Below are positions 16,725-32,885 of a DNA stretch of 34,048 nt, piece by piece. A model generated the notes under the pieces. That model was not told the origin of the DNA. It did no database searches and saw only the letters and a list, made by a program, of their open reading frames with translations. This DNA is from an uncultured Clostridia bacterium. Its GTDB lineage: Bacteria > Bacillota > Clostridia > TANB77 > CAG-508. The position numbers were made by a program, and so were the translations under genes. Position 1 is the first letter of the stretch; each line of letters opens with the position of its first letter. The stretch covers positions 1 through 34,048 of the forward strand of contig CALXRW010000017.1 in the NCBI GenBank assembly GCA_944390965.1. Reading direction: 5' to 3'.

Positions 16725-16944
16725 TTGAAAGAAAAAGGGTTAACCTCTGTACAAGATTGGTTACCTTTTGAAGAAATTTTAGAAAGAGGAATTCTAAAAT
16801 TAAAAAATAATACATATGTGAAAATACTGAGAGTTTTTCCTATTAATTACCATTTAAAATCTAATTTAGAAAAAGAAGCAATTTTAAATTCTTATAAAAT
16901 ATTTTTACAAACATGCGATTTTGATCTTCAAATTTTAATTCAAA
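16725..16944 (+). pseudogene. 5' part of secretion-operon protein split by the element
   Basis: TTG start 7 bp after AAGGAGG. The N-terminal part reads LTSVQDWLPFEEILERGILK then INYHLKSNLEKEAILNSYK and FDLQILIQ. After AATTCAAA (16937-16944) the frame enters foreign DNA, adds about 24 residues and stops at 17015. Joining it to 30718 onward gives 220 + 392 = 612 nt, a complete frame of about 203 residues. The sequence resembles small proteins encoded just before VirB4-like ATPases in clostridial conjugation clusters; I cannot name a family with certainty. The interrupted gene is presumably inactive unless the element excises. Confidence 0.8.
16937..16944 (+). other. attL core of the integrated element
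   Basis: AATTCAAA is repeated at 30710-30717. Crossing over between the two copies deletes 13,773 bp and restores the interrupted gene in frame (LQILIQ followed by KEDLSHHIYK). An alternative core TTCAAATT (16927 and 30706) would also keep frame but shortens the protein by two codons. Confidence 0.75.
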
Positions 16945-17083
16945 GCAATAAAGATTATATTTTATTCAATTTTTATATAAATTCCCAATCCTTACAAATA
17001 AGTGGAAATGATTGATATTATTACCTTTCTAACTAATTTAAAAGATAAATTTAGATTAAATAAAATCGAATAAAATTAAGATG

Positions 17084-17160
17084 GTAATATACACATAATA
17101 TACAGGTAATATACAAGTAATATACACAAAGAGTTTAATGTAATATACAAGTAATATACA
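17084..17160 (+). repeat. Left array of 11-bp-spaced GTAATATACA repeats
   Basis: Copies start at 17084, 17095 (first base A), 17106, 17117, 17140 and 17151: four at exact 11-bp intervals, a 23-bp step, then two at 11 bp. The same 10-mer occurs twice at 30652 and 30663, also 11 bp apart. One helical turn between units and presence at both ends fit integrase arm-type sites. The block 17106-17139 also recurs partly at 17140 (34-nt period). Confidence 0.8.
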
Positions 17161-17179
17161 AATTAAGGAGGTAATCAAA

Positions 17180-17617
17180 ATATTAAAACCATTAGAATTT
17201 TATTATATAGAACCAAAATATATAAATTATTTAAGACAATTTGATAAAAAGATACCAACAAAAAATAGACCATATTTAAAAATAAATTTAAAAAATAAAA
17301 ATTATGATTATTTTTTACCTTTATATTCTCCAAAAGAAAAACATAAGAATTATTATATGAATAAAACTTTTTTTAGAATATATGATTATTATAATAATTA
17401 TATTGGTTTGATTAGGTTTGCTAATATGATACCTGTTCCTAAAAGGTATGCTAAAAAAATTAATTATAATTATTCTAATAAATTATACAAGGAATATTAT
17501 TATATTTCTAAACACCAAAATCAAATTTTAAAGAAGGTTAATTACACTTACAATAATTATTATAAATTAAAAGAATTGTGTGTAAATTTTAAATTATTAG
17601 AAAAGGTAATAATTTAA
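17180..17617 (+). pseudogene. ToxN/AbiQ-like type III toxin lacking a standard start codon
   Basis: ToxN/AbiQ enzymes are endoribonucleases held inactive by a repeat RNA. The open frame from 17180 gives 145 residues. It reads EFYYIEPKYINYLRQFDKKI, then the family core FLPLYSPKEKH (compare PLTSPKKWH in Pectobacterium ToxN), then IGLIRFANMIPVP and CVNFKLLEK near the end. This covers the whole fold. AAGGAGG (17165-17171) is 8 bp from codon 17180, exactly where a start belongs, but that codon is ATA. The next in-frame ATG (17357) would remove the N-terminal 59 residues. So it is either inactivated by a G-to-A change or expressed weakly from AUA. No adjacent antitoxin repeat of about 35 nt is evident. 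Confidence 0.8.
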
Positions 17618-27926: not shown

Positions 27927-28856
27927 ATGAACGATTCAATATATCTATGTATAAAAGGGGTAAAAATAAATCAAATTCCTGAATTTTATAAAAAGTTCAA
28001 AAGGATTAGTGAAAATAAAATATATAAATATCATTATAAAGGTATATTATTTAATTATTTTTTGACTTCATGTTCACTATTAATTATGACTACATCAAGT
28101 AAAATACTTGGAAAAAATGATATTAAAGAAAGTGATGTTGATGAATTTGTTGAAAAATTAAAATCAATTATTTTAGAAATAGTTGACATAGATATAAAAA
28201 AGATAAAATTAAATGTTTGTAGATTTGATTATAAGGTAGATGTACCAATGGAAGATAAAGAAAGACATGAAATGTTTAATTTATTAAACAAACATAAAAT
28301 GAGGTATAGGTATATTAGAATGAGGAAAATATATCAAACAAGTATACATTTAGCAAATCATAGTAGCAGTAGAAATATTAATATATATGACAAAGGGGTT
28401 GAAAGTGGTATTCCAGAGTTTGAGAATGTAGTTCGTTTAGAATTACAAATTAAACATAGAGGAATCATAAGGTTATTAAATAAAGAAGAAAAACCAAGAG
28501 ACATTTATTACTATTGGGGAAAAGAAGCAATGGAGGAATTATTTTTTAAATATTTCGAGGGATTTCTTTATACAGGTACATATTATAAATTAGGACAAGC
28601 TATAAAAATAATTGAAAAATCTTCATATACAAGAACATTAAAAAAAGGTTTAATATCTTTTGTTTCAATAGTAAATAAAAATGGTATGTTAGGAGCTGAA
28701 AGATTTTTTAGTTACAATACTATAAGAAAATATGAAAAATTATTGGATAATATAAATGTTAATCCTATAACTATTGAAGATGATGCTGAAATAAATGAGA
28801 TGGAAAACTTATTAAAAAGAGCAAGAAGAATAGCAGAAGAAAAATATTTCAAATAA
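27927..28856 (+). CDS. Replication initiator, Rep_trans/G2P/MobT-like
   Basis: 309 residues. Features shared with Rep_trans (replication initiation factor) and filamentous-phage gene II-type initiators are VCRFDYKVDVPM (about 98-108), RNINIYDKGVESG (about 149-161) and VVRLELQIKHRG (about 168-179). These are the R-F/D, Y-x-K and R-x-E segments of the nuclease core. Proteins of this group nick DNA for rolling-circle replication, and relatives act as relaxases (MobT) of integrative elements. AAAGGAGAGATGAG precedes the ATG. The hairpin immediately upstream could be its target. The catalytic tyrosine could not be assigned with certainty. Confidence 0.7.
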   Translation: MNDSIYLCIKGVKINQIPEFYKKFKRISENKIYKYHYKGILFNYFLTSCSLLIMTTSSKILGKNDIKESDVDEFVEKLKSIILEIVDIDIKKIKLNVCRFDYKVDVPMEDKERHEMFNLLNKHKMRYRYIRMRKIYQTSIHLANHSSSRNINIYDKGVESGIPEFENVVRLELQIKHRGIIRLLNKEEKPRDIYYYWGKEAMEELFFKYFEGFLYTGTYYKLGQAIKIIEKSSYTRTLKKGLISFVSIVNKNGMLGAERFFSYNTIRKYEKLLDNINVNPITIEDDAEINEMENLLKRARRIAEEKYFK

Positions 28857-28968: not shown

Positions 28969-29199
28969 ATGAATTATAAAGAATATGTAGAAAAAAGAAA
29001 TAAAGAAAATAAAATAACAATAAAAAAGGCAAGTGAATTAATGGGAAAATCACAAAGTTTTGTAAGAATAGCAATGCAAAGAAATTTAATAAATATTGGG
29101 GTATGTTTAAAGAAAGAGGGGAGTAAAAGATACGATTATTATATAAATCCAAAACTATTTTATGAATATTTAGGGGAAAATAAAAAAAACATATTTTAA
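28969..29199 (+). CDS. Small HTH protein, candidate excisionase
   Basis: 76 residues. TIKKASELMGKSQSFVRIAM forms a helix-turn-helix, followed by a basic beta-wing region LKKEGSKRYDYYINPKLFYE, the layout of small excisionase/MerR-like winged helices. GGAGG lies seven bases before the ATG. The position directly upstream of the integrase, in the same direction, is standard for recombination directionality factors. No closer family assignment is possible. Confidence 0.65.
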   Translation: MNYKEYVEKRNKENKITIKKASELMGKSQSFVRIAMQRNLINIGVCLKKEGSKRYDYYINPKLFYEYLGENKKNIF

Positions 29200-29267: not shown

Positions 29268-30308
29268 ATGAAGAGAGCCAATGGAATGGGAAGTGTATAT
29301 AAAGCTGCAGGTAATAGAAGAAAACCTTATATTGTAAGGGTAACAAAAAAATTTGATGATAATGGAAAACAACTTTTTGAAATTTTAGGTGCATATGCCA
29401 CACAAAAAGAAGCTGAAAATATGTTAAATGAATATACTAAAAATCCATATAATCTTAATAATCGTCATATTACCTTTAAGGGTGTTTTTGATTTATGGAA
29501 AAAAGAAAAATATCCTAAAATAAGAGAGAATTCTGCAAAGGCTTATGATTCATCTTTCAATAAATATTGTAAAGATTTATGGGATATAAGATTTATAGAT
29601 CTTAGGTTAACTCATTATCAAACTTTAATTGATAATAGTAATTGTAATTATCCAACTAAAAATAAGATAAGAAACCTTTTAAGCCAATTATCTAAATTTG
29701 CTCTAAATAATGACATTGTGCTTAAAGATTATACAACAGCTATAGATATTGGAAAAAATACTAACACTCAAAAAAGAAAACCATTTACAAAAGAAGAAAT
29801 ACAAAAATTATGGGATAATGTTAACGAATTTAAATGGGTTGATAGTATTTTAATTCTCTTATATAGTGGCACTAGAATTTGCGAATTATTAGATACTGAA
29901 ATTAGTAATGTATTTTTAGATGAAAAATACCCATTTTTTGTATCTGGAAATAAAACAGATGCAGGAAGAGAAAGAAAAATACCTATACATAATAGAATTT
30001 TACCTTTGGTTAAAAATTATTATGAAAAAAATAAGGATAAAAAATATCTTATTACAAATCATAATGGAGAAAAAATGGATTATTACAATTATAGAAGGAA
30101 TAAGTGGGATGTTATAATGAAGGATTTTGGAATGGATTATACCCCACATTGTACAAGGCATACATTTATATCATTATTAAAAAGTAAAAGGGCTGACCCA
30201 TTAAATATAAAAAGAATTGTAGGTCATATTAGTAATGATGTGACTTCCGATGTTTATACCCATATTGATATAAAAGAACTATGGGAAACAGTAAATTTAC
30301 TTGACTAG
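29268..30308 (+). CDS. int: Tyrosine integrase of the element
   Basis: 346 residues. An N-terminal arm-binding (AP2-like) region, MGSVYKAAGNRRKPYIVRVT, is followed by a SAM-like core-binding domain (about 68-155) and the catalytic domain. Active-site residues are Arg203 (YSGTRICELLDTE), Lys229 (SGNKTDAGRERKIPI), His294 and Arg297 (TPHCTRHTFISLL), His320 (IVGHISND) and Tyr330 (VYTHIDIKELW). It belongs to the Tn916/phage-type group. GGGGGGAATAAATATATC precedes the ATG at 29268. Located 400 bp from the right junction, it should catalyse the recombination between the AATTCAAA cores. Confidence 0.95.
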   Translation: MKRANGMGSVYKAAGNRRKPYIVRVTKKFDDNGKQLFEILGAYATQKEAENMLNEYTKNPYNLNNRHITFKGVFDLWKKEKYPKIRENSAKAYDSSFNKYCKDLWDIRFIDLRLTHYQTLIDNSNCNYPTKNKIRNLLSQLSKFALNNDIVLKDYTTAIDIGKNTNTQKRKPFTKEEIQKLWDNVNEFKWVDSILILLYSGTRICELLDTEISNVFLDEKYPFFVSGNKTDAGRERKIPIHNRILPLVKNYYEKNKDKKYLITNHNGEKMDYYNYRRNKWDVIMKDFGMDYTPHCTRHTFISLLKSKRADPLNIKRIVGHISNDVTSDVYTHIDIKELWETVNLLD

Positions 30309-30316
30309 GATTAATG

Positions 30317-30365
30317 ATGATAGATATATTTGTTATGAAAAATAATATATCTATCATTTTTTTCT
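30317..30365 (+). terminator. Rho-independent terminator after int
   Basis: ATGATAGATATAT (30317-30329) and ATATATCTATCAT (30345-30357) form a perfect 13-bp stem followed by seven T. It ends the rightward element transcript before the right junction. Confidence 0.9.
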
Positions 30366-30709
30366 TTTTAATTTGAGAGATAAAATTTTTTCATTTTTGA
30401 GAAGAATATATATATATTAATAATTGATGAAAATGTATCATATTATTTCATACTATATTTTATAAAAAAAATTAAAATATATTAAAAATTTTAGTTACTT
30501 TACTACCAAATAAATTAAGAGGTTTCGAAGAAATACATAGCAAACATAATTTATAAAATATTTAATAAAAATAATAAAAAGAAGTTAAAGAATAGTATAT
30601 TTATATACTATTCTAACTAAAAATTAAATTAAATAAAATTAAATTAAATTAGTAATATACAGGTAATATACAAAATGTTCTAAAAAGATTGATAAATAAG
30701 TGTTATTCA
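30366..30709. other. Right end of the element, non-coding
   Basis: No gene. It holds an inverted copy (30489-30501) of a 13-mer found at 17624-17636, a stretch of alternating AAATT repeats around 30620-30650 and the two arm-like 10-mers. A tRNA or other known attachment gene is not present. Confidence 0.6.
30652..30672 (+). repeat. Right pair of GTAATATACA repeats
   Basis: Copies at 30652-30661 and 30663-30672, 11 bp apart, same orientation as the six left copies. They end 37 bp from the right core, in the position expected of integrase arm sites. Confidence 0.8.
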
Positions 30710-30717
30710 AATTCAAA
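30710..30717 (+). other. attR core of the integrated element
   Basis: AATTCAAA, matching attL at 16937-16944. The bases after it (AAGAAGACCTC) continue the interrupted gene in its original frame. Confidence 0.75.
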
Positions 30718-31109
30718 AAGAAGACCTCTCTCATCATATTTACAAAATTCAGAAACAATTAGAAATCGAAAATAATGAAAAAATTTCTCAAATTGCAAAC
30801 CAATATATTTTTTTTATTCAAAATAAAAATCTAGAAAATAAATCTTCATCAAAAAATTTTTTTATTCTTATAAAACAATCCCAAGAAAATTTAGAAACAA
30901 ATAAAGAAAATTTTTATATTCAACAATTAAATGAACAATATTTTAAAATAAAAGAATGTTTATATCGTTGTGGAAATCTTGTTTATGAAATTGAATCAAA
31001 TGAAGAAATAGAGCTTATTTTACAATCCTTTTTTAATTATCATAATTTCATAATAGGAGGTGAAAAGCGTTCTATATGTTTTTTAGAAAATCAAAAAAAG
31101 ACGAGTTAA
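30718..31109 (+). pseudogene. 3' part of the split secretion-operon protein
   Basis: With no start of its own, the frame runs from the right core as KEDLSHHIYKIQKQLEIEN, then QYIFFIQNKNLENK, CLYRCGNLVYEIESNEE and IIGGEKRSI, ending at TAA 31107. It overlaps the next gene's start by 34 bases, indicating translational coupling in the intact operon. The protein is soluble, helical and Lys/Asn/Ile-rich. Together with 16725-16944 it forms the complete gene. Confidence 0.8.
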
Positions 31110-32885
31110 AAAGAGCAGAAATTCTTGACGGAATTCGAACAAGAAAAGATTTTATTTCTCCTTCATATATCAATATAACAAATCCAAAATATTTAGAAAT
31201 TGATAATATTTTTTATTCTGGAATTATGATTACAAATTACTATCATGAATATACTGAATTAATTTTGAAAAATTTATTAGATATGAATAGTAATATGCAA
31301 ATTTCTATATTTTATGAAAAACAGGACACTTATAAAACTATTAAAGATATAACCTATCATATTGGAAATACAGGAGTGGATTTAGAAAGAAAGAACAAAA
31401 ACAGTCAAGATATTGACATGATAGCTTTTAGTCATGATGATGCCAAATATATAAGAAGAGAAATGCAAGTTAATAATGAAAATATGTATTTTTTATATAT
31501 TTATATCTGTTTATTTTCTGAGAATACAAAAGAATTAGAATATTTAATAAATAAAATAGAAGGAATATTAAATAGCAATGGCATGCAAACAAGAAGAGCA
31601 AATTTTAGGCAAGAACAAGTTTTTTTAAGTTGTTTACCTATGATGATAAATCATGAAGACATTAAAAATGTTTCTAAAAGAAATGTTTTAACAAATGGAT
31701 TACTTGCTACATATCCTTTTTTATCATCTTCTATTTTTGATGAAAATGGTATTTTTATAGGTTCTAATATTTATAATCAATCTTTAGTTTTTGTAGACCG
31801 ATATCAAACAGATAAATATAAAAATGCTAATATGTGTATTTTAGGAACAAGTGGCTCTCGGAAAATCTTTTTTCGTTAAATTATTAGCATTAAGATATAG
31901 ACTTTTGGGAATAGAGCAATTTATTATTGATCCAGATAGAGAATATACAAAATTATGTGAAAGTGTAGGAGGAACGATTATTAAAATAGGACCAAGTTCC
32001 AATACTTATATTAATGTATTAGATATTAGAGAAGAAAGTATTGAAGAAGAACAAGGATATTTAGCAACAAAACTAGCAAAATTAATTGGATTTTTTCACT
32101 TAATATTTGGAGAATTGAATGAAGAAGAAAAAGCTATTTTAGAAGAAAAAATTATTCTATGTTATCAGGAAAAAGGAATTACTTTTGATGATAATAGCTT
32201 ATATAGACAAAAAAAAGAAAATATTTCATCAAAACCTATTTTTAAAGAAAGCAAGGACATGCCAATATTAGAAGATTTATTTGAAATATTAGGAAGAGAA
32301 GAAAAAACAAAAAAATTTCAAACAAAATTAATACCATTTGTAAAAGGTTCTTTAAAATTTTTTAATCAACATACAAATGTAAAAATGGATGAAATATTTA
32401 TTGTAGCCGATGTATATGAATTAGGAGAAGATAATTTAAAATATGGAATGTATTTATTTACAGAAATTTTTTGGGACAAAATAAAAAAAAATAGAGAAGT
32501 AAAAAAAGCCATTTACTTAGATGAAGTTTGGAGATTAATTGGAGTGACGTCAAATAAAGAGGTTGCAAGTTTTATTTATAAAATATTTAAAACAATTAGA
32601 AAATATGGAGGAAGTGCTATCGCTATTACACAAGATATTTCTGATTTATTTAGTTTAGAAAATGGAACTTATGGAAAAAGTATATTAAATAATTCTAGTA
32701 TGAAAGCTTTTTTCTCTTTAGAAGAAGAAAATATATTATTGCTAAGCCAGTACACGAATTTGTCTGAAAAAGAAAAAATAGAAATAAAATCATTAAAAAG
32801 AGGAGAATGTTTAATGTTTGTAGGAGAGGATCACATTTTAGCAAAAATTGAAGCAGCAGATTTTGAAAAAAATTGTATTATGTAA
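31076..32885 (+). pseudogene. VirB4/TrsE-like conjugation ATPase with a frameshift
   Basis: VirB4-type ATPases energise type IV secretion and conjugation. Two open frames, 31076-31879 and 31851-32885, join into about 601 residues if one base is removed near 31859. The first then ends ILGTSGSGKSFFVKLL, restoring Walker A. Other marks are IDPDREYTKL, the Walker B AIYLDEVWRLIG, KTIRKYGGSAIAITQDISDL and a final KRGECLMF. AGGAGGTG is 13 bp before ATG 31076. The extra C lies within GGCTCTCGGAAAA. As sequenced the gene makes a protein truncated inside Walker A. Real mutation and read error cannot be distinguished here. Confidence 0.85.

Follow-up and report, generated by a model that had tools for sequence, protein, structure and literature searches.

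A solitary ToxN-family gene with ATA in the start position, just inside an integrative element in virB4, may be translated weakly from AUA

The analysed stretch of DNA (the window; 34,048 nucleotides from an uncultured Clostridia bacterium) holds a complete reading frame for a ToxN/AbiQ-family endoribonuclease (toxN, 17180–17617, plus strand), in which the triplet ATA occupies the start position. The gene is solitary, with no antitoxin beside it, and lies close to the left boundary of a 13.77-kb element, within that element, which is inserted site-specifically in virB4. We put it at about an even chance that toxN is an intact gene translated weakly from AUA, aided by a strong Shine-Dalgarno sequence, and that this initiation is sensitive to IF3 and keeps the product at a low level. 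The AUA start would then be repressed by IF3, as would infC of the same hosts, and the ToxN level would stay low, rising only when start-codon discrimination relaxes; RNase activity would be exerted at low dose. The product is probably made at a trickle or not at all.

The toxN frame is open for 145 codons and ends with TAA at 17615–17617. Read from 17165, its leader runs AAGGAGGT-AATCAAA-ATA-TTA-AAA-CCA, with the Shine-Dalgarno sequence at 17165–17172, ATA at 17180–17182 and eight bases between GGAGG and ATA (GGAGG-N8-ATA; all on the plus strand). Pairing of this site with the canonical 16S tail, an established sequence and not one read from the genome of the window, gives a duplex of –15.5 kcal/mol, which ranks 5th among 27 genes. 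The ideal ribosome site with ATA at the correct spacing that the first-pass annotation had described is thus clearly present. Gene-leading GGAGG sites in the window are followed by a canonical start within 4–12 nt except at toxN and at the virB4 site at 31056, where an ATG lies about 15 nt downstream. There is no in-frame ATG, GTG or TTG of toxN before 17357, which is already past the FLPLYSPKEKH catalytic motif. Genes with an IF3-controlled non-AUG start are marked by an optimally spaced AUN codon behind a strong Shine-Dalgarno sequence, where no canonical start is available, and toxN displays this arrangement. A different, conserved upstream start in homologues had been named beforehand as evidence against this reading, and it was found in part. 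When the sequences are aligned without gaps, the nearest relatives have their ATG one codon upstream of ATA (MKQYNFKFYYI versus K-ILKPLEFYYI), but the window codon in that column is AAA. ATA is thus the codon at the correct distance from the ribosome site, although it does not strictly share a column with the ATG of these relatives.

That the frame encodes a full-length ToxN-like toxin, as initially proposed, was confirmed by profile, solved-chain and fold matches. The product matches the Pfam ToxN_toxin profile over positions 1–155 of 159 (E 7.2e-26; 91.7 bits against a curated cut-off of 25), the PADLOC AbiQ profile (4e-23) and the sequences of solved ToxN/AbiQ chains (5e-13). A predicted-fold search returned ToxN/AbiQ as its top four PDB matches; the predicted structure, of moderate confidence (pLDDT 63), served solely to confirm the fold family. 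At the positions of the ToxN active site, K33/T52/S53/K55 (PMC8860590), the product carries R/Y/S/K, as do antitoxin-bearing relatives of the bacterial family, so that Lys/Arg33, Ser53 and Lys55, the residues that define membership, are present as R, S and K. Compared with ToxN/AbiQ type III toxins (PF13958; PDB 4ato, 2xd0, 7d8o, 4glk), toxN shares the full-length match, the fold class and the active-site Ser/Lys. It differs in having neither ToxI repeats nor a terminator, in the AUA at its start and in length, with 145 aa against about 170 aa. By these marks the product belongs to the ToxN protein family, but, judged by repeats and terminator, its gene is not part of a type III toxin-antitoxin operon.

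Within its clade, the window protein also diverges most and sits on the longest branch. It alone carries G34K, at the position of ToxN G37, which is Gly in all 26 others compared; Gly37 has a role in the ToxN fold (PMC8860590) and is a conserved fold position, not a curated requirement for family membership. Pairwise dN/dS between the window gene and its relatives is 0.11–0.32. Against the copy in assembly G207 there are 3 synonymous and 0 nonsynonymous changes, and since all 3 lie beyond 17532, where sequence differences start, they may stem from recombination.

The nearest relatives of toxN, at 62–73% identity, reside in other elements. Three such elements of about 24 kb lie inside virB4 and carry at the opposite end a large serine-recombinase-like protein, named from its N-terminal sequence and not by a profile search; for the G391 element the far end is on another contig, and the size and recombinase of this element are assigned by analogy. 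In window equivalents, the insertion points of the 24-kb elements are 32007–32019, in both orientations, and 32386. One further relative locus lies in virB4 at 32467 and three lie outside virB4. Several solitary ToxN genes directly adjoin virB4 junctions of unrelated elements.

Across the 10 loci of the toxN clade we found no repeats of 22–60 nt and no terminator upstream of the gene (best hairpin –1.2 to –6.3 kcal/mol). In contrast, each of the 23 more distant ToxN genes from this bacterial family is preceded by a terminator hairpin of –14.6 to –22 kcal/mol, and several of these carry repeats of 37–54 nt. The clade is therefore a solitary, antitoxin-less group of ToxN genes. ToxN genes without antitoxin repeats or a terminator were seen at L004, L005, L006, L007, L011, L012 and L013. 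The comparison of start codons in related elements that the first-pass annotation had called for gave a uniform picture: the close relatives all start with ATG, and the starts in about 70 other ToxN genes are ATG, GTG or TTG, with AUA, AUU or AUC in none. One distant ToxN gene (L050, G163:C5:66080-66562) has an ambiguous start, as its conserved N-terminus and the nearest ATG lie in different frames, and is possibly another start-damaged allele. Because the ATG-starting siblings are also without an antitoxin, antitoxin loss alone does not explain ATA; that loss came before ATA or independently of it. The suggestion that ATA serves to tolerate the loss of the toxin’s own antitoxin is weakened by these siblings and was not upheld.

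The carrier of toxN is a gut bacterium whose mobile element, the right end of which encodes a tyrosine recombinase, is inserted in a core virB4 gene. In the relatives examined (L113, L117, L071), this VirB4-type locus lies between gyrB and gyrA. At the empty site of two relatives (L052, L054), window position 16954 joins 30705 through a 17-bp imperfect repeat. The interrupted ORF, of 197 codons in intact relatives, is the N-terminal part of a VirB4-type ATPase, and comparison with these relatives identifies its 5' fragment, cut by the element, at 16725–16954 (plus strand). The left attachment site, attL (ATTCAAAGCAATAAAGA, 16938–16954), contains the host/element boundary at about 16950–16954, as indicated by the empty site and by the L058 host flank, which diverges from the window up to 16949 and is identical from 16950. 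The right site, attR (ATTCAAATTCAAAAAGA, 30705–30721), is placed by the empty site and by the right end of the element in G181. The rest of the virB4 locus occupies 30722–32885 (plus strand). There, a single additional base at the Walker A motif (31850–31880) splits the main ORF into ORFs 31076–31879 and 31851–32885; this is either real decay or an assembly error. The virB4 locus is interrupted at four different sites by at least two kinds of element, with tyrosine or serine recombinases.

Within the element, toxN is the first gene inside attL. It is oriented as virB4, and its leader overlaps probable arm sites for the integrase or excisionase, namely six copies of an 11-bp repeat (GTAATATACAx) at 17084–17160 (plus strand). 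The same repeat recurs at the right end as two copies at 30652–30672 (plus strand). Read as GTAATATACA, it is present in six copies within the left end and two within the right, and with one mismatch allowed there are 17 matches in the window versus 5.3 expected by chance. Towards the right end lie the integrase gene (29268–30308, plus strand; Pfam Phage_integrase, 2.6e-16) and, adjoining it, a small protein that is a putative excisionase by position and size only (28969–29199, plus strand). A hairpin terminator of about –15.7 kcal/mol, followed by a T run, comes after the integrase gene (30313–30361, plus strand). The frame at 27927–28856 (plus strand) is a putative rolling-circle replication initiator, with a weak G2P-like match (E 0.016) below the curated cut-off. 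The integrase, the direct-repeat ends, the empty site in relatives and the use of the same site in other hosts identify a site-specific integrative element. IMEs in traG, snf2 and Maff2 genes (PMC5704250) likewise insert site-specifically within a conjugation-type gene, at several sites and as several elements. Unlike in those IMEs, the target here is a virB4-type gene in the core gyrB–gyrA locus, and toxN lies against the junction.

The toxN ATA is identical in three assemblies, namely the window, G207 (CAMMLJ010000033.1) and G349 (CALXPX010000073.1), and the upstream DNA is identical in G207 and G349. Up to 16949, the gyrB–virB4 flank of G349 belongs to another host background, with gyrB about 80% identical, and from 16950 onwards G349 is identical to the window. 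Because the allele is shared by three assemblies with two different host flanks, a sequencing error that hides an ATG, against which the first-pass annotation had cautioned, is ruled out and ATA is real. G207 carries a near-identical full element, on a contig (L057, G207:C33) of 13,784 bases that is the element alone and ends where the host would begin, and its assignment to the G207 genome therefore rests on binning. The virB4 of the G207 genome itself is intact, and the contig ending at the element ends suggests that the element was present in more than one host background in the sample. In G181, where the integrase is 100% identical, the element abuts a further, different virB4 at its right end. 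The stretch of G181 that might hold the left half (L118 8001–20000, G181:C3) is masked as N, and the ATA comparison covers the window, G207 and G349. With identical left ends in two host flanks and a third flank at the G181 right end, the ATA allele has travelled with the element, and the identity of the three left ends shows recent spread of the element between host lineages. Further genus-wide searches found no extra copy of the ATA allele. Searches for relatives in phages and viral contigs found none, the viral scan with a 15-base pattern being unspecific, and plasmid relatives were below 60% identity only.

Support for initiation at AUA comes from infC. In the genome of the window, infC has GGAGG, eight bases and ATA, a spacing equal to that of toxN. 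Among 31 genomes of the family, the genome of the window and 30 relatives (L239 and L240–L269), infC starts with ATA in 26, ATT in three, ATC in two and ATG in none; in three of these genomes a stop in the same frame lies immediately before this codon and excludes any start farther out. AUA is thus a working start in this lineage. The gene infC is essential, and in other bacteria IF3 represses its non-AUG start; such control by IF3 is also documented for sigR of Streptomyces (PMC5472188). Three S. aureus genes, infC, ccpN and citZ, start at AUA with an extended Shine-Dalgarno sequence, and measured AUA/AUU sites yield about 10–30% of AUG output (PMC13009471). Since infC of the same genome and family uses AUA, AUU or AUC, AUA initiation of toxN is plausible; it would be weak and is expected to be IF3-sensitive. 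The toxN leader resembles infC and its relatives in this respect, ccpN and sigR, in having AUA behind a strong Shine-Dalgarno sequence. Unlike these housekeeping or regulatory genes, toxN is a toxin gene on a mobile element, and its IF3 control is putative. Of the two fates originally proposed for the toxin, silencing or low-level AUA initiation, the latter is made more plausible by the infC starts, and silencing is a close rival.

An ordinary type III toxin-antitoxin operon, with the upstream 11-bp repeats as a shortened ToxI, could be argued from the seven near-copies directly upstream of toxN and from two 21-nt units that lie 34 nt apart. We give this reading almost no weight. The same repeat also lies next to attR, at the opposite element end, its unit measures 11 nt instead of 34–36 nt (PMC5086642), and no Rho-independent terminator lies between the repeats and toxN, where the best hairpin reaches –1.2 kcal/mol against the values above for the 23 true systems; nor are there tandem repeats of 22–60 nt period upstream of toxN in the window. 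Repeats at both element ends fit integrase arm sites, which they probably are, and argue against an antitoxin array, and the ToxI candidate was rejected for that reason. It is likewise most improbable that ToxN starts at another codon, such as ATT 17162 or TTA 17183. Distant relatives do have ATG or TTG in the column of TTA 17183, but this codon stands 11 nt away from GGAGG and is not known to start translation efficiently, ATT 17162 is upstream of the Shine-Dalgarno sequence, and the spacing of ATA is optimal.

The close rival to weak functional expression is that a point change removed the start codon, so that toxN is in effect not made and is carried as a dead allele by a recently spreading element. 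We favour weak expression and hold this loss to be somewhat less probable. The retained full frame and strong Shine-Dalgarno sequence, the low dN/dS and the use of AUA as a start in the lineage all speak against a dead gene. However, ATA is limited to one element lineage among the ToxN genes compared, and the window protein alone replaces the invariant fold glycine, on the longest branch; moreover, as the element spread recently, a dead toxN would have had little time for decay to show. A further extension of weak expression, in which IF3 replaces the antitoxin as the brake on ToxN and a drop in initiation fidelity, for instance under stress or phage attack, sets the toxin free, seems doubtful to us.

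If the AUA start is used, toxN would be the first case known to us in which a toxin from a toxin-antitoxin family is restrained by its start codon and not by an antitoxin. Gene finders would miss such a gene, because no standard start precedes the catalytic motif. As infC starts with AUA, AUU or AUC throughout the family, the IF3 hypothesis can be tested directly, and the presence of a solitary ToxN clade on elements with repeated insertion into virB4 leads one to ask what role these toxins may play.
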